Assembly (NCBI GenBank): GCA_030765785.1
Contig: JAVCCC010000051.1
Coordinates: 1-51,221, forward strand
Reading direction: 5' to 3'
Origin: Candidatus Aceula lacicola
GTDB lineage: Bacteria; Omnitrophota; Gorgyraeia; Zapsychrales; Aceulaceae
DNA: 51,221 nucleotides
Shown: one piece after another, positions 14,233-23,143 of the stretch
How the letters are laid out: each line of letters starts with the position of its first letter
Numbering within the stretch: the stretch's first letter is position 1
Notes under the pieces: model-generated
The model's database searches: none
What the model was told of the DNA's origin: nothing
What the model saw: only the letters and a program-made list of their open reading frames with translations
Translations under genes and position numbers: made by a program

Positions 14233-14517
14233 ATGATTAGCAAAAAAGATGTTCAATACATTTCGCACCTTTCAAGGATCTACACAGACGATCACGAAGC
14301 CGAAGCACTCGCCAAAAATCTGGAAGGCATTCTAACTTACATAGAAAAACTCAAAAAGCTCGATATTAAAAACGTCAAACCAACGAGCCATGTTTTGCCA
14401 CTCAAAAACGTCTTTAGAGATGATATTTTAAAGGAATCTCTTGGACAAAAGAACGCAACAAAAATTGCTGTGAAAAGCGAAAAAGGCTCTTTTAAAGTTC
14501 CACAGGTGATCGAATGA
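14233..14517 (+). CDS. gatC: Asp/Glu-tRNA amidotransferase subunit C
   Basis: Small subunit that stabilises GatA-GatB in the complex converting Glu-tRNA(Gln) and/or Asp-tRNA(Asn) to the amide form. With the ATG at 14233 it has 94 residues, the family's usual size, starting [16 protein letters not shown] longer version from a TTG at 14164 would add 23 residues that fit no family member and would overlap the promoter. The mid-protein [21 protein letters not shown] segment ([15 protein letters not shown]) is characteristic. Four-base overlap with gatA. Confidence 0.93.
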
Positions 14518-15950
14518 AGCTAAACGAACTAACCGCGCACGAGCTTCTAGATTTGATTAAAACAAAAAAAGAAACAGCAGCATCAATCTTTTCTGCGGTA
14601 AAGCGGGCCATTGATGCCCTTGATAAGAAAATCAACGCATATGCACATATCTCTGAAAAGCCTATTGAATCAACAGATTCTTCTAAAGAAAATCCTATCC
14701 CAATTGCGATCAAAGACAACATTTGCATCAAAGACTATCTGACTACTTGCTCATCTCACATACTAGAAGGCTTCAAGCCACCATATAACGCCACCGTTGT
14801 TAACAAACTTTTGGATTCAGGTGCACTGATCACAGGACATGCCAATATGGATGAATTCGCATTCGGATCATCCACAGAAACATCTTTTTTTGGTCCAACA
14901 AGAAATCCATGGAACTTAGAATGTGTTCCCGGCGGATCAAGTGGTGGATCTGCAGCCGCTGTTGCAGCAAACGAAGCGATCTGGGCTCTTGGATCTGACA
15001 CAGGAGGCTCTATTCGCCAACCAGCTTCTTTTTGCGGTGTTGTTGGATTAAAGCCAACCTATGGGCGGGTTTCTCGTTATGGACTCATTGCGTTTGCCTC
15101 TAGCCTTGATCAGATCGGCCCTTTAACCAAAGACGTGGAAGACTCAGCACTTCTTTTAAATCTTATTTCTGGTCATGATGAAATGGACTCAACTTCGGCA
15201 AACTTAAGTGTTCCAGATTACGCTAAGGCGCTAACCGGTGATATAAGAAATCTTAAAATTGGAATTCCAAAAGAATACTTTATCGAGGGCATTGACCCTG
15301 AAGTCAAAACAAACATTATGGAAGCGATTGAGGTCTTAAAAAAGAAAGGGGCTCAATTTAAAGAAATTTCTTTACCACATACCGAATATGCCGTCGCCAC
15401 ATACTACATTTTGGCAACAGCTGAAGCCAGCTCTAATCTTGCACGTTTTGATGGTGTTGAATACGGATTGCGTTGCCACCCAAAAGAAAAAAGACGAACT
15501 CCTATCATCGACATGTACGAAGAAACTCGACGACAAGGTTTTGGACAAGAAGCAAAAAGACGCATCATGCTTGGAACATATTCGCTGTCCTCTGGCTATT
15601 ATGATGCGTATTATTTAAGAGCACAAAAAGTGCGAACACTTATTAAAAACGATTTTGATGAAGCCTTTAAAGAATTTGATGCTATTCTTACGCCAACATC
15701 GCCGACAACAGCCTTTAAGATCGGAGAAAAAGCATCTGATCCGTTATCAATGTACCTTTCCGATATTTATACAATTTCAGCAAACTTAGCAGGCATCCCA
15801 GCACTTTCTCTGCCATGTGGATTTTCAAAAGATGGACTTCCCATTGGCTTACAAGTTATGGCAAAACCATTTGATGAAGAAATGATTTTTCGCGTTGCTC
15901 ATACATATGAACAAAACACAGATTGGCATAAAAAGAAGGTGACGCTATGA
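14514..15950 (+). CDS. gatA: Asp/Glu-tRNA amidotransferase subunit A
   Basis: Amidase subunit that releases ammonia from glutamine or asparagine for the GatB site. It has 478 residues. The Ser-Ser-Lys amidase site is visible: Lys in IPIAIKDNI, the serine-rich [13 protein letters not shown] loop, and the nucleophile loop [16 protein letters not shown]. Overlaps both gatC and gatB by four bases. The presence of gatCAB suggests the organism charges Gln-tRNA and/or Asn-tRNA by transamidation. Confidence 0.97.
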
Positions 15951-17407
15951 AACAATACGAAACCGTCATCGGCCTAGAAGTCCACCTTCAGTTAAGCACA
16001 CAAACAAAAATTTTCTGCGGATGTTCGACAGAATTCGGCAAAGACCCAAATAGTCAAACATGTCCAATTTGCTTGGGACTTCCAGGGACACTGCCTGTAT
16101 TAAATAAAAAAGTTTTAGAATCTGCTATAAAAATTGGACTGGCTCTTAATTGTAAAATTAATTCACTTGTTAAATTTGATCGAAAAAATTATTACTATCC
16201 TGATCTTCCCAAAGCTTATCAAATTTCTCAATATGATTTTCCAATTGCGCACACAGGATATTTAAATGTTAAAACTGGAGACGAAACAAAGAAACTCGGC
16301 ATTACTCGCGCTCACATGGAAGAAGACGCCGGAAAACTTATTCACGATCCTGCAATCAAAAGCAGTCTAGTAGATTATAATCGAACAGGCACGCCTTTGG
16401 TTGAAATTGTAAGCGAACCCGACATGCGATCACCTCAGGAAGCTTATGATTATTTGACAACGCTAAAGCTGCACATGCAATATCTGGATGTTTCCGATTG
16501 CGATATGGAAAAAGGGAGCTTGCGCTGCGATGCAAACGTTTCGATTCGAGAAGAAGGTCAAACAAAACTTGGAACAAAAGCAGAGTTAAAAAATTTAAAC
16601 TCATTCAAAGCTGTTAAGAGCGCCTTAGAGTTTGAAGTGGCTCGACAAATCAAACTTGCTGAATCCGGCGAACGCATCGTACAAGAAACGCGTCTCTGGG
16701 ATGAAAGCAAGCAAATCACTATTTCAATGCGCAGCAAAGAAGAAGCACACGATTATAGATATTTTCCAGAACCAGATCTTGTTCCGTTTATGGTCGAAAA
16801 AGAAGATATTAAAAATGTAAGAACAACGCTACCAGAATCTCCATCCAAGAAGCAGGATCGCTTTATTAAAAATTATAAATTATCCACTTATGATGTCGAT
16901 GTGCTTGTTCAAGATAGAAAAATATCTGACTTTTTTGAAGAATGCGTAAAAGAATACAATCAACCAAAAAAAATCTGCAACTGGATAATAGGTCCATTAT
17001 TACAGGAAATAAATTCAAATGAAAAAGGCATTAGCAACGATCGCCTTTCTGGGATTAACCTTGTTGCCCCTACCGCAAAAACCTTCACCGACTTAATCAT
17101 AAAAGTTGAAGATGGAACCATTAGCAACCTTGTCGGGAAAAGCGTCCTAACTTCAATGCTAGACCGCGGCAAAACTTCAGCTGAAATTATAAAAGAACAA
17201 AACTTGGCTCAAGTCTCTGATGAAGGTGCTTTGGAAGAGATTGTTGCTACGGTTATCGCTGAGAATTCCAAAATTGTCGAACAAATTAAATCTGGTAAAG
17301 AAAGCGCCATTGGCTTTCTTGTCGGACAATCCATGAAAAAAACACAAGGAAAAGCTAACCCTAAGAAAATTGGAGAGATGATCAAAAGGAGAATCTTAAA
17401 TGACTAA
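15947..17407 (+). CDS. gatB: Asp/Glu-tRNA amidotransferase subunit B
   Basis: Kinase/amidotransferase subunit that phosphorylates the tRNA-bound acid and transfers ammonia. It has 486 residues, the normal length. Family features: [10 protein letters not shown] start, two Cys pairs (CGCS and CPICLGLPG) of the zinc site, [25 protein letters not shown], and the C-terminal YqeY-like tail (about residues 330-486). It overlaps the downstream ctp gene by 8 bases, so the protease is probably co-transcribed. Confidence 0.97.
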
Positions 17408-18689
17408 GAAAATTTTTATCGTTATTGTTTGTCTTTTTTCTATTTTTTCACTAACAAAAATTGCAACATCTGAAATTGACAAAAAAGACGCGCTTCCCGA
17501 CGATCTTTATTCTCAAATTGAACTTTTTAGCTATGCGCTAACAACTGTTCAAGCTGCATACACAGAAGAACCGTCTGCTAAAGATCTTATCTATGGATCG
17601 CTTAAAGGCATGCTCAACTCACTTGATCCACATAGCCAATTCTTAACACCCGAAGATTTTAAAGACCTAAAGACCGAGACAGAGGGAAAATTTGGCGGAC
17701 TTGGCATTGAAATCTCAATTCGAGATAATCTCCTGACGGTCATCACTCCGCTTGAAGACACCCCTGCTTGGAAATCCGGTATAAAAGCGAAAGATAAAAT
17801 TGTTAAAATTGGCGATGAGTCAACAAAAGATATTACGTTAAGCGAAGCTGTTAAAAAACTACGCGGAAAACCAGGTACAAAAGTTGATATAACGATATTC
17901 CGCGAAAAAGAAGGGAAGATTCTTGATTTTACAATTACGCGCGAGATGATCCATATTCAAGATGTTAAAGATGTTATGCTCCTCGATGATAGCATCGGGT
18001 ATATTCGTTTAACAGAATTTCGTGAAGATTCTTACAAAGAATTTAAAAAAGCTTTAAACAAACTAAAAGACGAAGGCGCTGACAGCTTAGTCCTTGATTT
18101 ACGTAATAATCCTGGCGGCCTTCTCAATGTTGCAATTGACATCTCAGAAGAGTTTCTCCCCGAAGGACAAATTATCGTAGAGACAAAATCTCGAAACCCA
18201 TCTCAAAATAGCGTTGAAAAATCGAAAAACTCAAAGGGGGAATTTATCAATTGGCCGATTGTTGTTTTAATCAACGAAGGGAGTGCTTCAGGAAGCGAAA
18301 TTCTTGCTGGTGCGCTTAAGGACAACAAAAGAGGAATTATTATTGGAACGCAATCTTTTGGAAAAGGTTCCGTGCAATCAGTCATTCCTTTACCTGATGG
18401 TGCTGGCCTAAAATTAACAACAAGCAAATATTTTACTCCTTCAGATATTTCAATTCATGGAGTTGGTATCACGCCAGATATTATTGTAGAATACGACTCA
18501 GATGGTGCCGTTGAAGACAAAGAAAAAGAAGATAAGGCAGAAAAGATATTCGATGATGTTGAAAATGGCGACAAAGAACTGGATGAAGCTGCCCTTAAGG
18601 AACAAAAAACAAAGAAACGACTTTTGGCGGATGATCAGGTAAAATCTGCGATTAGCGTTCTTAAGGGGATAAAAGTTTACCAAAAATAA
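17400..18689 (+). CDS. ctpA: Carboxyl-terminal processing protease (S41)
   Basis: Exported serine protease that trims or degrades periplasmic proteins. It has 429 residues: signal peptide (1-25), helical segment with LNSLDPHSQFLTPEDF, PDZ domain (about 95-180, FGGLGIEISI), and an S41 core. The catalytic dyad can be placed at Ser297 in GSASGSE and Lys322 in SFGKGSVQ, 25 residues apart as in the family. The C terminus is charged and acidic (about 370-400). In proteobacteria ctpA sits between envC and a YibQ-type deacetylase; here the deacetylase follows but envC is absent. Confidence 0.95.
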   Translation: MTKKIFIVIVCLFSIFSLTKIATSEIDKKDALPDDLYSQIELFSYALTTVQAAYTEEPSAKDLIYGSLKGMLNSLDPHSQFLTPEDFKDLKTETEGKFGGLGIEISIRDNLLTVITPLEDTPAWKSGIKAKDKIVKIGDESTKDITLSEAVKKLRGKPGTKVDITIFREKEGKILDFTITREMIHIQDVKDVMLLDDSIGYIRLTEFREDSYKEFKKALNKLKDEGADSLVLDLRNNPGGLLNVAIDISEEFLPEGQIIVETKSRNPSQNSVEKSKNSKGEFINWPIVVLINEGSASGSEILAGALKDNKRGIIIGTQSFGKGSVQSVIPLPDGAGLKLTTSKYFTPSDISIHGVGITPDIIVEYDSDGAVEDKEKEDKAEKIFDDVENGDKELDEAALKEQKTKKRLLADDQVKSAISVLKGIKVYQK

Positions 18690-18701
18690 ATATACTTTTT
18701 T

Positions 18702-19520
18702 ATGAAAATTAGAAACTTTAAAATCAGCAAGAAAATGCTGCTAGGTGTTTGCGTCGCAATTATCATTGTTGCTATTTTGATCGCTAAATCAAATAAACCT
18801 ATTCACAGGGACGTCGTGGATTCTTCTAATGAGATCGCTGGAAGAATCGCAATCATTGTTGATGATTGGGGGTACAACTCTCGAGGATGCGACTTTTTTG
18901 AAAAGCTTCAATCGCCTATTTCAATTTCAGTCTTACCAAAGCTTTCCTTCAGCTCACAAATTGCTAAGTGTGCGCACGAAAACAACAAAGAAGTCATGTT
19001 GCACCTTCCCTTAGAGCCTCATAAATTTTTAGAAAAATACCCTGATCATTATGTTGCATTAACTTCAATGAACAGTGGAGAAGTCACGACGCTTCTTAAA
19101 GAATCCTTTGATAGCGTTCCTTTCGCCAAAGGAACAAACAATCATATGGGATCGAAGGCAACGGAAGATATTTCTTTTATGCGAATCATTTTTGATTATC
19201 TCAATTCGCATAATTTATTCTTTGTCGATAGTATGGTTTCAGGAAACTCTATCTGCGAAGACCTCGCAAAAGAAACAAATACGCCATTTGTTAAAAGAAA
19301 TATTTTTCTTGATAATGAAGCTGACCGCCCATATATCGAGGGTCAATTTGAACAACTTGCAAACTTAGCTAAAAAAAATAGCTATGCTGTTGGCATCGGA
19401 CACGATCGTCCGCTAACTCAAGAAATTATATTAGAACAAACAAAAATTTTAAGCGAAAAAGGATTTGAATTTATTACCATCGGTGATCTTATCGAATTCT
19501 TAAACGAAACGAAAAAATGA
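18702..19520 (+). CDS. Divergent polysaccharide deacetylase family protein (YibQ-like)
   Basis: Exported or membrane-anchored protein of 272 residues. One N-terminal membrane helix (about residues 13-29) is followed by a divergent deacetylase fold with IAIIVDDWGYN, ISVLPKLSFS, EVMLHLPLEP, and GTNNHMGSKAT. These match the YibQ-type family, whose members occur beside ctpA and envC and are presumed to act on peptidoglycan or another glycan; no reaction is established from sequence. Short 12-base spacing after ctpA and ATGA overlap with tsaD place it in the operon. Confidence 0.85.
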   Translation: MKIRNFKISKKMLLGVCVAIIIVAILIAKSNKPIHRDVVDSSNEIAGRIAIIVDDWGYNSRGCDFFEKLQSPISISVLPKLSFSSQIAKCAHENNKEVMLHLPLEPHKFLEKYPDHYVALTSMNSGEVTTLLKESFDSVPFAKGTNNHMGSKATEDISFMRIIFDYLNSHNLFFVDSMVSGNSICEDLAKETNTPFVKRNIFLDNEADRPYIEGQFEQLANLAKKNSYAVGIGHDRPLTQEIILEQTKILSEKGFEFITIGDLIEFLNETKK

Positions 19521-20497
19521 AATCATTGAATATACTCGGCATAGAAACATCTTGCGATGAAACATCCGCATCCGTTGTAAAAGACGGCAAGCTAATCTTG
19601 TCTAATGTTGTTGCGACAAGCCTAAAAGATCATCAAAAATACGGCGGCATCATCCCTGAAATCGCTTCACGCAAACAACTAGAGCTTATCAGCGCTGTGA
19701 CTCATCGAGCTCTAGAAACTGCAAAAACTTCATTAAAGCAAATCGATTCCGTTGCCGTTACGTCAAGCCCAGGGCTTATAGGATCTCTTCTAGTCGGCAT
19801 TTCATTTGCACAATCATTAGCGTATGCTTTAAAAAAACCATTCATTGAAGTCAACCACATCACCGCTCATCTTTACGCAAATTTTTTAAAAAAGAAGGGG
19901 GCGAAGGAGCAAGTAAAAAAAATTCCAAAACTCCCAGCCGTTGGACTTGTTGTCTCCGGCGGACATTCAAGTCTTTTTTATATTAAAAACTTTAATCATT
20001 TTCTTCCTTTAGGACAAACTCGCGATGATGCCGCAGGAGAGGCGTACGATAAAGTTGCTCGAATTCTTAATCTAGGCTATCCAGGAGGACCCGCGATTGA
20101 CCGACTCTCAAAAATGGGAACAAACAACAATCTTCAATTCCCTTGTGCAGACTTACCAAATAGCTTTGATTTTAGTTTTAGTGGAATCAAGACATCTGTC
20201 TATTATCATGTTAAAAAACAAAAAAAAATAACTTCTTCTCATGTTCGAGAAATTGCATTCTCGTTTCAGACAAGCGTTGTCGCAGCGCTTGTGAAAAAAA
20301 CACTTTTAGCTTGTGAATCAAAACGCGCCAAAACCATCGTTGTCGGAGGTGGCGTTGCCGCCAATTCTAAGCTTCGAAAAGAACTTTACTCTCAAGCAGA
20401 AAAAAAGAATATCGAAATCTTTTTTCCTGATATCGATTTATGCATGGATAACGCTGCTATGATTGCAGGGCTAGGATATCATTACACCAAGAAATAG
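19517..20497 (+). CDS. tsaD: tRNA N6-threonylcarbamoyladenosine transferase
   Basis: Transfers the threonylcarbamoyl group to A37 of ANN-decoding tRNAs, with TsaB and TsaE. It has 326 residues of ASKHA fold. GIETSCDETSASVV is the N-terminal phosphate loop, the iron/zinc-ligand histidines are in HITAHLYAN, and VSGGHSSL, GEAYDKVARIL and MDNAAMIAGLG are all intact. ATGA overlap with the deacetylase; mgtC follows after 16 bases with AGAAAGGAAC. Confidence 0.97.
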   Translation: MKSLNILGIETSCDETSASVVKDGKLILSNVVATSLKDHQKYGGIIPEIASRKQLELISAVTHRALETAKTSLKQIDSVAVTSSPGLIGSLLVGISFAQSLAYALKKPFIEVNHITAHLYANFLKKKGAKEQVKKIPKLPAVGLVVSGGHSSLFYIKNFNHFLPLGQTRDDAAGEAYDKVARILNLGYPGGPAIDRLSKMGTNNNLQFPCADLPNSFDFSFSGIKTSVYYHVKKQKKITSSHVREIAFSFQTSVVAALVKKTLLACESKRAKTIVVGGGVAANSKLRKELYSQAEKKNIEIFFPDIDLCMDNAAMIAGLGYHYTKK

Positions 20498-20513
20498 AAA
20501 GGAACTCTAAGCA

Positions 20514-20966
20514 ATGGCTCAAATCTTAGATCAAATGGCAGACATACTTTTCAAAATTCTTTTAACAATCTTACTCTCCGGCATTATAGGTATTGAACGT
20601 TTTGTTCGCCATAAAGGAGCAGGGCTACGAACGCATATTTTAATTGGCGTCGGATCCGCATTGCTCGTGTTGACTTCATATCATGTTTTTGATATATATA
20701 GAGAGGCAAATATCGTTGACCCGACACGAATCATTGCTGGAATCGTAACTGGTGTCGGATTTCTATGTGCTGGGACAATTATTCGCGGCGGGGCGGGCAT
20801 CACTGGCCTAACAACTGCAGCTAGCATGTGGGTTGTTTCCGGCATAGGGATGGCTGTTGCAGCTGGACAATATGGAGCTGCCATCATTGTTACTTTTGTT
20901 GTTTTCTTGACGCTGATCGGTCTTCGTCCTATTGAAAAAAGAATTGAAAAAATGTTTCGACCCTAA
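20514..20966 (+). CDS. MgtC/SapB-family membrane protein
   Basis: Integral membrane protein of 150 residues with about four predicted helices. The family signature is clear: GIIGIERFVRHKGAGLRTHI near the N terminus, then GVGFLCAGTIIRGG and GLTTAASMWVVSGIGMAVA. Related proteins affect magnesium homeostasis or ATP synthase, but many members have unknown roles. It lacks the C-terminal ACT-like domain of MgtC proper. Precedes the bactofilin gene by 14 bases, with AGGAGG between them. Confidence 0.88.
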   Translation: MAQILDQMADILFKILLTILLSGIIGIERFVRHKGAGLRTHILIGVGSALLVLTSYHVFDIYREANIVDPTRIIAGIVTGVGFLCAGTIIRGGAGITGLTTAASMWVVSGIGMAVAAGQYGAAIIVTFVVFLTLIGLRPIEKRIEKMFRP

Positions 20967-20980
20967 AACAGGAGGAAAAA

Positions 20981-21499
20981 ATGGCTATTCGAGATAAGCG
21001 AAATAAAAAAAATGACGACCAAAAGGCTATTGAAATCAATGCAGAAATGCAAGGAACACTTTCTTTTACCGATCCTGTGAACCTAAGAATCAATGGCAAT
21101 TTTGAAGGAACGCTCCAAACAAAAGGAACTTTAACGATTGGTGAAAACGCCATAGTTGATGCTCGTATCACCGGTGAGAGTATTATCGTCGCCGGAAAAG
21201 TCAAGGGAGACGTTACAGCCAACACCATGCTTGTCCTTATGCCCGAATCAGAATTAGAAGGCAACATCACGACACCTAAGCTAAATATTGTTGAAGGTGC
21301 AATTTTTCAAGGAAAATGTCAAATGCTTAACGAAAAATTATCAACAGATGAGGTCTCCAGATATCTTGACCTTGATATTCCATCTGTTATTGAAATGGCA
21401 AACGCTGGCAATATTCCGGCCACTCGTGACGGAGATAGCTGGAAATTTGAACGAGCAAAAGTAGACCGATGGATTGCGCTCGAAAAAGCTAAAGGATAA
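20981..21499 (+). CDS. Bactofilin with C-terminal excisionase/MerR-like helix-turn-helix
   Basis: A 172-residue fusion. Residues about 18-112 form a bactofilin beta-helix (repeats such as LRINGNFEGTLQTKGTLTIG and AGKVKGDVTANTML). Residues about 119-172 look like an HTH_17-type DNA-binding domain: LSTDEVSRYLDL, SVIEMANAGNIPATRDG, then WKFERAKVDRWIALEKA. Bactofilins polymerise without nucleotide on the inner face of the membrane, and the second domain suggests DNA or a regulatory partner is bound to the polymer. A strong AGGAGGA site precedes it. The next gene encodes a second domain of the same helix-turn-helix type with a membrane anchor, 2 bases away. Function unknown. Confidence 0.83.
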   Translation: MAIRDKRNKKNDDQKAIEINAEMQGTLSFTDPVNLRINGNFEGTLQTKGTLTIGENAIVDARITGESIIVAGKVKGDVTANTMLVLMPESELEGNITTPKLNIVEGAIFQGKCQMLNEKLSTDEVSRYLDLDIPSVIEMANAGNIPATRDGDSWKFERAKVDRWIALEKAKG

Positions 21500-21501
21500 A
21501 A

Positions 21502-21804
21502 ATGTCTGATCAATTTATTTCTGTTAGAGAAGCAGGGCAACTGCTAGGTATTTCCGAAAAAAAAATCATGGAGCTTTCCGAGGAGGAGAAGCTTAAAATC
21601 TACCGAATCGCTGGACAATTCATTCGCTTTAAAAAAAGCGATGTGCTTGCTATGAAAAACACCGGATCCATTATCTCTGAAAACACTCGTCACGAATACA
21701 CGAGAGCGGAACGCATTAGAGATTTCTTTTATTTTAATGATTTTTATCTAATTTCACTTGGCATCATTGCTTTCTTTTTATATATAATTTTCCGCAATTC
21801 ATAA
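21502..21804 (+). CDS. Membrane-anchored helix-turn-helix (excisionase-type) protein
   Basis: A 100-residue protein. Residues about 5-52 match an excisionase/MerR-like domain (FISVREAGQLLGISEKKIME, then GQFIRFKKSDVLAMKN). A linker of about 20 residues with basic and acidic residues follows, then one hydrophobic helix at about 77-97 ending four residues from the C terminus. Tail-anchored topology would leave the DNA-binding domain in the cytoplasm at the membrane. It starts 2 bases after the bactofilin-HTH gene and is surely co-expressed. No int or phage genes are near, so a true excisionase is unlikely. Function unknown. Confidence 0.75.
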   Translation: MSDQFISVREAGQLLGISEKKIMELSEEEKLKIYRIAGQFIRFKKSDVLAMKNTGSIISENTRHEYTRAERIRDFFYFNDFYLISLGIIAFFLYIIFRNS

Positions 21805-21825: not shown

Positions 21826-21854
21826 TTGATATTTCGTTTTCTTTAACGTAAAAT
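21826..21854 (+). promoter_or_regulatory. Promoter of the CAU tRNA
   Basis: TTGATA (21826-21831), 17-base spacer, TAAAAT (21849-21854). Transcription would begin about four bases before the mature tRNA 5' end. Confidence 0.65.
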
Positions 21855-21864
21855 GCACCTCTTT

Positions 21865-21941
21865 GGCGGCGTAGCTCAGTCTGATAGAGCGCTCGGCTCA
21901 TACCCGATCGGTCACTGGTTTAAATCCAGTCGCCGCCACCA
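21865..21941 (+). tRNA. tRNA with CAU anticodon (elongator Met, or Ile2)
   Basis: A 77-base cloverleaf with encoded CCA. The acceptor arm is GGCGGCG/CGCCGCC with a paired 1-72 position, so it is not the initiator. The anticodon loop CTCATAC gives CAU. The acceptor sequence favours elongator Met; tRNA-Ile2, a TilS substrate, is the alternative. The anticodon stem has a C27-U43 mismatch. The D-loop has G18-A19 in place of GG and the T-loop reads TTTAAAT in place of TTCGAAT, so the tertiary 19-56 pair is A-U instead of G-C. Confidence 0.93.
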
Positions 21942-21978
21942 TTTCCCTAAATTATCAAAACTAAATCTTTCGAAACGC

Positions 21979-22007
21979 TTGCGATATCTTCAAGTTCCAA
22001 GTATAAT
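21979..22007 (+). promoter_or_regulatory. Promoter for the coiled-coil/SNase-like pair
   Basis: TTGCGA (21979-21984), 17-base spacer, and a perfect TATAAT (22002-22007), about 30 bases before the ATG at 22038. A GAGG ribosome-binding site lies in between. Confidence 0.65.
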
Positions 22008-22037
22008 AACCAAAAACATAAAACACGAGGTACTAAT

Positions 22038-22595
22038 ATGCATATTTATACTCTTTTATTAATCATCTGTTTTGTCATAAACCCTTTACCAACATCAGCC
22101 CTAGCACAAAGCACTTCAGGTGAAAATATCTCTAATCCTGAAGACTTCGAAATATGGGCCCTAAAAAAGAAAAACCTTTCTGAGAAAGATCGAAAACGTT
22201 TTAATAAAGCAATCGAAAAATACGATGAAGCAAAAGAAAAAGAAAGACGAGCCCATGAAAAATTGACACAAGCCAAAAGCAAATTTGCAAATTTCTCTTT
22301 ATCAAAAAATAAAGAGATCTCTAGAGAAGTTCGCAAGCTTGAACAAAAAATTGAGAGAGCGCAACAAAAAATCAATCAATATCAAGGGCGTATTGAGACT
22401 GCCAAAAGCAAACTCTTTGATCTTGAGGATAGTTTTGACGCAAGTATAGAAAAGTTTCAAGAAAAACTCGAGAGCAAAGAAGAAAAGCTAGAAAAAAGAG
22501 TCGAGCGAGAAGAAAAAAAATACGAAAAAACCCAAGAGAATACAAACAATGCTAAAAAAGAATTTAAAAAGGTCAAAAAAAATCTATCAAAGTAA
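22038..22595 (+). CDS. Exported coiled-coil protein, function unknown
   Basis: A 185-residue protein with a Sec signal peptide (about 1-23, cleavage near SALAQ). The rest is almost entirely charged helix: Lys, Glu and Arg dominate residues 45-185, with heptad-like segments such as VRKLEQKIERAQQKINQ suggesting a long periplasmic coiled coil or single alpha-helix. No enzymatic domain is visible. Its stop overlaps the start of the SNase-like gene by one base (TAATG), so the two products are probably made together. I do not recognise a named family. Confidence 0.75.
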   Translation: MHIYTLLLIICFVINPLPTSALAQSTSGENISNPEDFEIWALKKKNLSEKDRKRFNKAIEKYDEAKEKERRAHEKLTQAKSKFANFSLSKNKEISREVRKLEQKIERAQQKINQYQGRIETAKSKLFDLEDSFDASIEKFQEKLESKEEKLEKRVEREEKKYEKTQENTNNAKKEFKKVKKNLSK

Positions 22596-23143
22596 TGGCA
22601 ACAAAAATCACTAAACTATTATTTTTACTTTTTTTCTTATGTTCAGCGGGGCAAACTGCCAGCGCAGAAAAGAAATCTGATCCTTTATTTTTAGGCCTTT
22701 CACAAAAAAACAAAAAAGCTGTTGTAGAAAATGTTACAAATTCGGGTTTGATTCTTCTTGAGGACAAGAGACGTGTTAAGCTTATTGGGCTAAAGCCTCT
22801 CGACCGACCAAAGCGAAAGAAGCAAAAATTTAAGAAATACAATATACCTGTTGAAGAAGAAGAAAAACCAACAACAACAATTGAAGAAAGAGCCTATGGT
22901 TATGCGAACAGCCTCCTAAAAGGCAAACAAGTCACAATAGAATTTGACAGGCAATATCGCGATAATCAAGGCTATATATTAGGATACGTTTTTCTCCCAG
23001 ACGGAACGTTAGCCAATGCTGAAATTCTGCGCCAAGGATTTGCGGATCTCACTATTAAGCCTCCGAACACAAAATACGAACCTGAGCTTCGAAAAGCTTA
23101 TCTTGAGGCTAGAGAAGAAAAAAGGGGAATTCAAGGAAACTAA
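22595..23143 (+). CDS. Exported SNase-like (thermonuclease-fold) protein, probably non-catalytic
   Basis: A 182-residue protein with a signal peptide (about 1-24, ending TASAE). The remainder resembles a staphylococcal-nuclease fold: RRVKLIGLKPL strand, GKQVTIEFDRQYRDNQG, YVFLPDGTLANAEILRQGFA and the closing AYLEAREEKRGI helix. The three residues that catalyse in nuclease (Arg35, Glu43, Arg87) appear replaced: the first by Lys, the GRGLAY arginine by Tyr in GYILGY, and no PE follows the first strand. A binding role is more likely than DNA cleavage. Coupled to the upstream coiled-coil gene. Confidence 0.78.
   Translation: MATKITKLLFLLFFLCSAGQTASAEKKSDPLFLGLSQKNKKAVVENVTNSGLILLEDKRRVKLIGLKPLDRPKRKKQKFKKYNIPVEEEEKPTTTIEERAYGYANSLLKGKQVTIEFDRQYRDNQGYILGYVFLPDGTLANAEILRQGFADLTIKPPNTKYEPELRKAYLEAREEKRGIQGN

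Follow-up and report, generated by a model that had tools for sequence, protein, structure and literature searches.

The stretch of DNA analysed here, referred to below as the window, comprises 51,221 nucleotides of Candidatus Aceula lacicola and carries two adjacent genes on its forward strand that bring together a bactofilin, two helix-turn-helix (HTH) domains and a membrane helix. Gene 1 (20981..21499, + strand) encodes a bactofilin-HTH fusion of 172 aa in which both domains score above their Pfam cut-offs. Residues 17-114 (21029..21322, +) match the bactofilin profile PF04519 with an E-value of 3e-24 and 85.6 bits against a cut-off of 27.9, and residues 120-166 (HTH1; 21338..21478, +) match the HTH_17 profile PF12728 with an E-value of 4.2e-8, the TIGR01764 'excise' model likewise exceeding its own cut-off. 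The protein starts with a basic tail, M-A-I-R-D-K-R-N-K (20981..21007, +), which resembles MFSKKKK, the membrane-targeting consensus of bactofilins (PMC12448750); 75 of 106 gene 1 N-termini combine a hydrophobic residue at position 2-3 with at least two K/R, and the other 31 are without the hydrophobic residue. F109 aligns with the polymerisation residues F105 of TtBac and F130 of BacA, the F130R variant of the latter having been described as polymerisation-deficient (PMC12448750), and since position 109 is hydrophobic (F, L, I or V) in 106/106 orthologues, it is plausible that gene 1 is competent to polymerise. No second bactofilin was found in the source genome (1.5 Mb).

Gene 2 (21502..21804, +), recognised by Pfam, hydropathy and its orthologues, begins two bases past the gene 1 stop and encodes a protein of 100 aa with an HTH and a C-terminal membrane helix. 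Its residues 6-53 (HTH2; 21517..21660, +) match HTH_17 above the cut-off (E 1.1e-7) and combine an acidic recognition helix with a basic wing, YRIAGQFIRFKK. Alignment of the orthologues revealed a juxtamembrane motif, DFFYFNDFYLIS, at residues 74-85 (21721..21756, +; consensus DFxYFNDFYI), and Y82 is invariant in 106/106 orthologues. The single membrane helix (21733..21795, +) is a predicted tail anchor, as judged from Kyte-Doolittle hydropathy and the terminal helix of the structural model; the C-terminal hydropathy exceeds 1.6 in 105 of the 106 orthologues, with a median of 1 residue between the best window and the C-terminus. Family profile searches of gene 2 gave no match to a RodZ or XRE-class model at E-values up to 1.

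The AlphaFold2 model of the pair from a close relative (mean pLDDT 88.8) consists of a beta-helix, two separate winged HTHs, each arranged as helix-helix-strand-strand-helix, and two closing helices, the second of which is the membrane helix. In Foldseek searches the core matched the T. thermophilus bactofilin and BacA (6rib/2n3d), and the HTHs matched BldC, Xis and RacA and, weakly, CbpM (3ucs); profile searches against the PDB agreed in finding a bactofilin and BldC/Xis-like winged HTHs. The beta-helix fold and a PF04519 score above the curated cut-off place gene 1 in the bactofilin family, and the winged-HTH fold and profile scores above cut-off place both genes in the HTH_17 / BldC-Xis class.

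The two genes occur together across the phylum Candidatus Omnitrophota. Strong matches to full-length gene 1 (E <= 4e-23) occur in 164 of 193 sampled Omnitrophota genomes. All 164 are among the 174 genomes that match gene 2, and the 19 without such a match lie outside them. In 106/106 loci with a full-length gene 1, gene 2 follows it directly downstream in the same orientation, with a median gap of 23.5 nt, the number of independent loci being slightly lower than 106 because a few loci represent one genome reached by two routes. Ten of these loci came from a contig scan with gene 1 only, and all 10 Omnitrophota loci so found have gene 2 downstream. The closest named relative, 84% identical, is a contig of Candidatus Aceula meridiana, and the remaining full-length matches in the contig scan are Omnitrophota MAGs with one exception titled 'bacterium'. 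The recurrence of both genes in the same order across the phylum is far beyond chance. The architecture that the preliminary description had read from the sequence, a bactofilin with an HTH followed by an HTH with a C-terminal membrane helix, is borne out by the Pfam profiles, with all domains above cut-off, and by AlphaFold2, which predicts winged HTHs where HTHs had been placed (residues 119-172 of gene 1 and 5-52 of gene 2); the pairing of the genes, and with it their conservation in relatives, extends throughout the phylum.

Outside Omnitrophota, the gene 1 profile retrieved no bactofilin-HTH fusion among the matches listed for about 105 genomes, namely 60 of a phylum represented by Zixibacteria records, 41 of a phylum represented by Fibrobacteres records and 7 of mixed origin, two of which were already counted in the other sets; as Planctomycetes/Verrucomicrobia and other neighbouring phyla lie outside this sample, it does not prove exclusivity to Omnitrophota. 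Nearly all of these genomes have bactofilins, and the bactofilin matches listed extend no further than profile position about 107-135, where the HTH begins or short of it, the HTH matches being located elsewhere. In 40 outside genomes the gene 2 profile gave a single match, partial and interrupted by an internal stop, and no plasmid record spans a bactofilin-HTH fusion.

In the window, the pair closes a conserved gatCAB-ctpA-yibQ-tsaD-mgtC cluster whose upstream genes all run in one direction (14514..20966, +). These are gatA (14514-15950), gatB (15947-17407), ctpA of the S41 type (17400-18689), a polysacc_deac_2/yibQ gene (18702-19520), tsaD (19517-20497) and mgtC (20514-20966), with a gatC-like ORF just before gatA, from about 14164 (+); yibQ and mgtC were named by Pfam and the others from sequence. 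Same-strand upstream orthologues were present for tsaD in 79, gatB in 76, ctpA in 75, gatA in 74, mgtC in 61 and yibQ in 56 of 106 loci, contig ends truncating several of these loci. Promoter and terminator scans around the cluster performed no better than the shuffled level.

The charge of the HTHs bears on what they might bind. Stand-alone HTH_17 domains of the same order, encoded outside the pair (n=29), carry a mean charge of +2.9 on the recognition helix and +5.6 on the domain, a typical sequence being LRVKKRTVYDWVKKGKIPAIKTVGQWRFKK; these figures are approximate, as the set consists of the best Pfam scores and about half of it comes from one conserved subfamily. On the same scaffold, HTH1 (n=85) has a recognition helix of -1.7 and a domain of -2.9, with E at position 130 in 89% and D/E at position 132 in 99% of sequences, where the stand-alone set is rich in R/K. 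For HTH2 (n=89) the recognition helix is at -1.3 and the wing at +3.5. The basic recognition helix that marks a DNA-binding HTH_17 is absent from both genes, and the acidic helices, set against the basic ones of stand-alone homologues, are here read as a sign that the HTHs were exapted to bind proteins, a small possibility being left that the basic wing of gene 2 contacts nucleic acid. HTH1 is closer to the stand-alone homologues (34% identity) than HTH2 is (28%). A duplication origin of the two HTHs was also considered, and a recent event was ruled out, since the identity of HTH1 and HTH2 within a locus, 23%, equals the cross-locus average.

Contact between the proteins of gene 1 and gene 2 was examined by structure prediction and covariation. 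Tethered AlphaFold2 predictions were made from loci with gene 2 in frame with gene 1, in which stops were read as Ser to serve as an artificial linker and not as a claim of read-through. The full tethered fold reached a pTM of 0.53 and the HTH1-linker-HTH2 construct a pTM of 0.40 (28 paired sequences), and no HTH1-HTH2 interface was predicted. In mean-field DCA of 106 pairs, inter-protein couplings were at chance, with 122 of the top 266 against 128.6 expected, at a Neff of 79 that gives low power. The lone outlier, I103 of gene 1 with S7 of gene 2, was dropped because it reflects conservative covariation of I/V with S/T. A direct HTH1-HTH2 contact is possible but unsupported.

The dependence between the two genes is one-way. 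Gene 1 was seen without gene 2 in 0/106 loci and 0/164 genomes, and the reverse was seen repeatedly: among 23 genomes lacking a strong gene 1, PF04519 is without any match in 22, and at least 8 PF04519-free genomes (G007, G023, G083, G031, G172, G190, G146 and G176) keep a full-length gene 2 (E <= 4e-24). Where the flanks were read, this gene 2 still belongs to the cluster and follows tsaD or mgtC. Since gene 2 persists without a bactofilin, it cannot serve bactofilin anchoring alone and must have some role without it; its survival after bactofilin loss was not foreseen in the preliminary description. In one bactofilin-free genus (L198-L200, from G007, G083 and G023), mgtC apparently has a long C-terminal extension that ends a few bases before gene 2, which suggests a clean loss of gene 1. 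In family f11, gene 2 follows straight after tsaD (L125-L127), with bactofilin and mgtC absent and polA-like and glycogen-synthase-like genes, named from sequence only, downstream; three genera retain gene 2 without bactofilin.

Judging by the sequences, the pair would seem to be a membrane-scaffold system that had not been described before, and not a DNA-binding one. In the reading that we prefer, and to which we give an even chance, the pair constitutes a membrane-associated scaffold in which the bactofilin polymer depends on a RodZ-like, tail-anchored adaptor, the HTHs of both having been exapted for protein binding. Gene 1 would polymerise via its beta-helix and display a winged HTH converted from DNA binding into a protein-docking module, and gene 2 would act as a C-tail-anchored inner-membrane adaptor with its HTH on the cytoplasmic side. 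The winged HTH of gene 2 might then bind HTH1 or the beta-helix of the bactofilin, or reach it via a third protein, and this contact would bring the polymer and the envelope machinery together at the membrane, much as the HTH of RodZ ties MreB to the membrane, in what may be a morphogenetic or envelope-related role. Both architectures, the strict pairing, the fixed cluster, the non-basic recognition helices, the tail anchor with its DFxYFNDFY motif, the hydrophobic position 109 and the one-way dependence are consistent with this model, for which RodZ, CbpM and the clients PbpC and LmdC, compared below, serve as precedents. Weighing against it are the lack of a predicted interface, the chance-level couplings and the persistence of gene 2 without a bactofilin. 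Moreover, an extra anchor may be unnecessary where gene 1 N-termini resemble the membrane-targeting sequence, as 75 of 106 do, and a fixed order in a slowly rearranging cluster could hold the neighbours together without any contact. More tentatively, as a proposal falling somewhat short of probable, we speculate that the pair forms a phylum-wide cytoskeletal module in which a tail-anchored HTH receptor is dedicated to the bactofilin and docks onto the formerly DNA-binding domain fused to it. Such a 'bactofilin-RodZ' system would have the same repurposed HTH fold on both sides, and its receptor would have a second role independent of the bactofilin.

A rather unlikely alternative, though one that several observations favour, is that the gene 2 protein acts autonomously in the membrane with a partner of its own and is encoded beside the bactofilin by virtue of the cluster only, without touching it, HTH1 docking some other client. 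The retention of gene 2 in at least 8 genomes without a PF04519 match, in an unchanged place within the cluster where the flanks were read, would be expected if this were so, as would the lack of predicted HTH1-HTH2 packing and the finding that in several lineages it is the juxtamembrane-TM part of gene 2, not its HTH, that is best conserved. However, gene 1 never occurs without gene 2, even though mgtC and yibQ are absent from some loci, and both genes share the HTH class, each having lost the basic recognition helix. We regard as unlikely a more specific form of the scaffold model, a direct heterodimer in which acidic HTH1 sits on the basic wing of HTH2. This dimerisation, which the preliminary description had considered, would accord with the complementary charges (-2.9 for the HTH1 domain, +3.5 for the wing), the common fold class and the strict pairing, but the pTM of the tethered two-HTH fold and the chance-level DCA speak against it, as does the retention of the gene 2 HTH where gene 1 is absent.

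Less probable again, and disfavoured by the charges, is the tether that had also been proposed there, in which the HTHs would bind DNA and hold a chromosomal or regulator site at a membrane-bound bactofilin polymer, in the manner of BacNOP-PadC-ParABS. Both winged HTHs are near BldC/Xis and RacA, the wing of gene 2 is still basic, and a link between bactofilins and the chromosome is known in M. xanthus (PMC5703909). Yet the recognition helices are acidic in both genes where those of stand-alone homologues are basic, the acidic replacements in gene 1 are conserved, and no par gene was recognised among the commonest recurrent neighbours. It is hardly credible, finally, that the genes form a mobile-element excisionase or an ordinary transcription factor pair, for which only the HTH family name (TIGR01764 'excise') speaks. 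The cytoskeletal core fusion, the tail anchor and the acidic recognition helices oppose such a role, and an excision or mobile element was rejected because the recurrent neighbours form a housekeeping cluster, fixed throughout the phylum, and include no recombinase or mobile element, in line with the doubt expressed at the outset.

Compared with known bactofilins (BacA of Caulobacter, TtBac of Thermus, BacNOP of Myxococcus), gene 1 shares the beta-helix core, the hydrophobic polymerisation site and, in most orthologues, the basic N-terminal tail. The core of those proteins lies between unstructured N- and C-terminal tails (PMC10945521), whereas the C-terminus of gene 1 folds into a winged HTH, and an HTH-TM gene is its strict companion. 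RodZ binds MreB and not DNA through its HTH (PMC6946637); it is a bitopic protein of 337 aa whose HTH belongs to the XRE class and whose TM lies at 112-133. Gene 2 resembles it as a single-pass membrane protein with an HTH that is apparently not of the DNA-binding type, presumably cytoplasmic, encoded beside a cytoskeletal polymer gene; unlike RodZ, it has a winged HTH of the HTH_17/BldC type and ends at the TM. MreB itself is present in the source genome. CbpM, which is linked to transcriptional regulators and binds the J-domain of CbpA (PMC4063869), offers a further case of a MerR-type winged HTH exapted for protein binding, and is the weak Foldseek match noted above, but it targets a co-chaperone and is neither fused to nor paired with a cytoskeletal protein. 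In M. xanthus, the C-terminal extension of BacP binds a client encoded next door, in the BacP-PadC-ParAB system (PMC5703909); PadC is a ParB-like, DNA-associating adaptor, while the present pair has neither a ParB-like domain nor a basic recognition helix. PbpC and LmdC, clients of BacA, belong to the membrane proteins that are encoded next to bactofilins or brought in by them through cytoplasmic tails (PMC12448750, PMC10945521). Gene 2 likewise encodes a membrane protein beside a bactofilin gene, but one that has no periplasmic enzyme domain. As no M23 peptidase scores above the Pfam cut-off in the source genome, an LmdC-type partner, the usual partner enzyme of bactofilins, is not evident; the sole M23 match (L220, C39:22676-22888) is below cut-off and lies inside a 1161-aa frame.

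Searches of the open-access literature, which leave aside subscription papers, found no paper joining a bactofilin with Omnitrophota or with an excisionase, and papers on HTHs, MerR and the Omnitrophota cytoskeleton do not describe the pair in their titles and abstracts. The expectation that the system is undescribed has held up in this search, and the pair is real, conserved and apparently undescribed, a variant of bactofilin systems and not a new category. Studies of how bactofilins are recruited to their partners have dealt with disordered tails and with clients that are membrane enzymes. If our reading is correct, the pair would offer a compact and testable module in which a conserved, folded docking head and its strictly paired membrane partner show how a bactofilin reaches the envelope. 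It would also add to RodZ-MreB a second example of an HTH that has become an adaptor for the cytoskeleton, and would provide a cell-biological marker present in nearly all Omnitrophota. In addition, HTH_17 should not be read automatically as DNA-binding.

Some smaller observations concern related proteins and the downstream flank. A stand-alone HTH_17 protein of the source organism (L157, G000:C56:29832-29981) and its counterparts L158-L171 share the pattern L[ML]TI[ED]EVA.YLRVKKRTVYDWVKKGKIPAI.TVGQWRFKK; this protein is strongly conserved across the order and keeps the basic recognition helix that the HTH of gene 1 has lost. Directly downstream of the pair lies a tRNA-Met (CAT) gene (21865-21941), overlapped by a 69-aa ORF (21853-22062) that is probably spurious. 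At 22038-23143 follow two small genes with apparent signal peptides, one for a coiled-coil protein and the other for a staphylococcal-nuclease-like protein (PF00565, E 2.5e-10).
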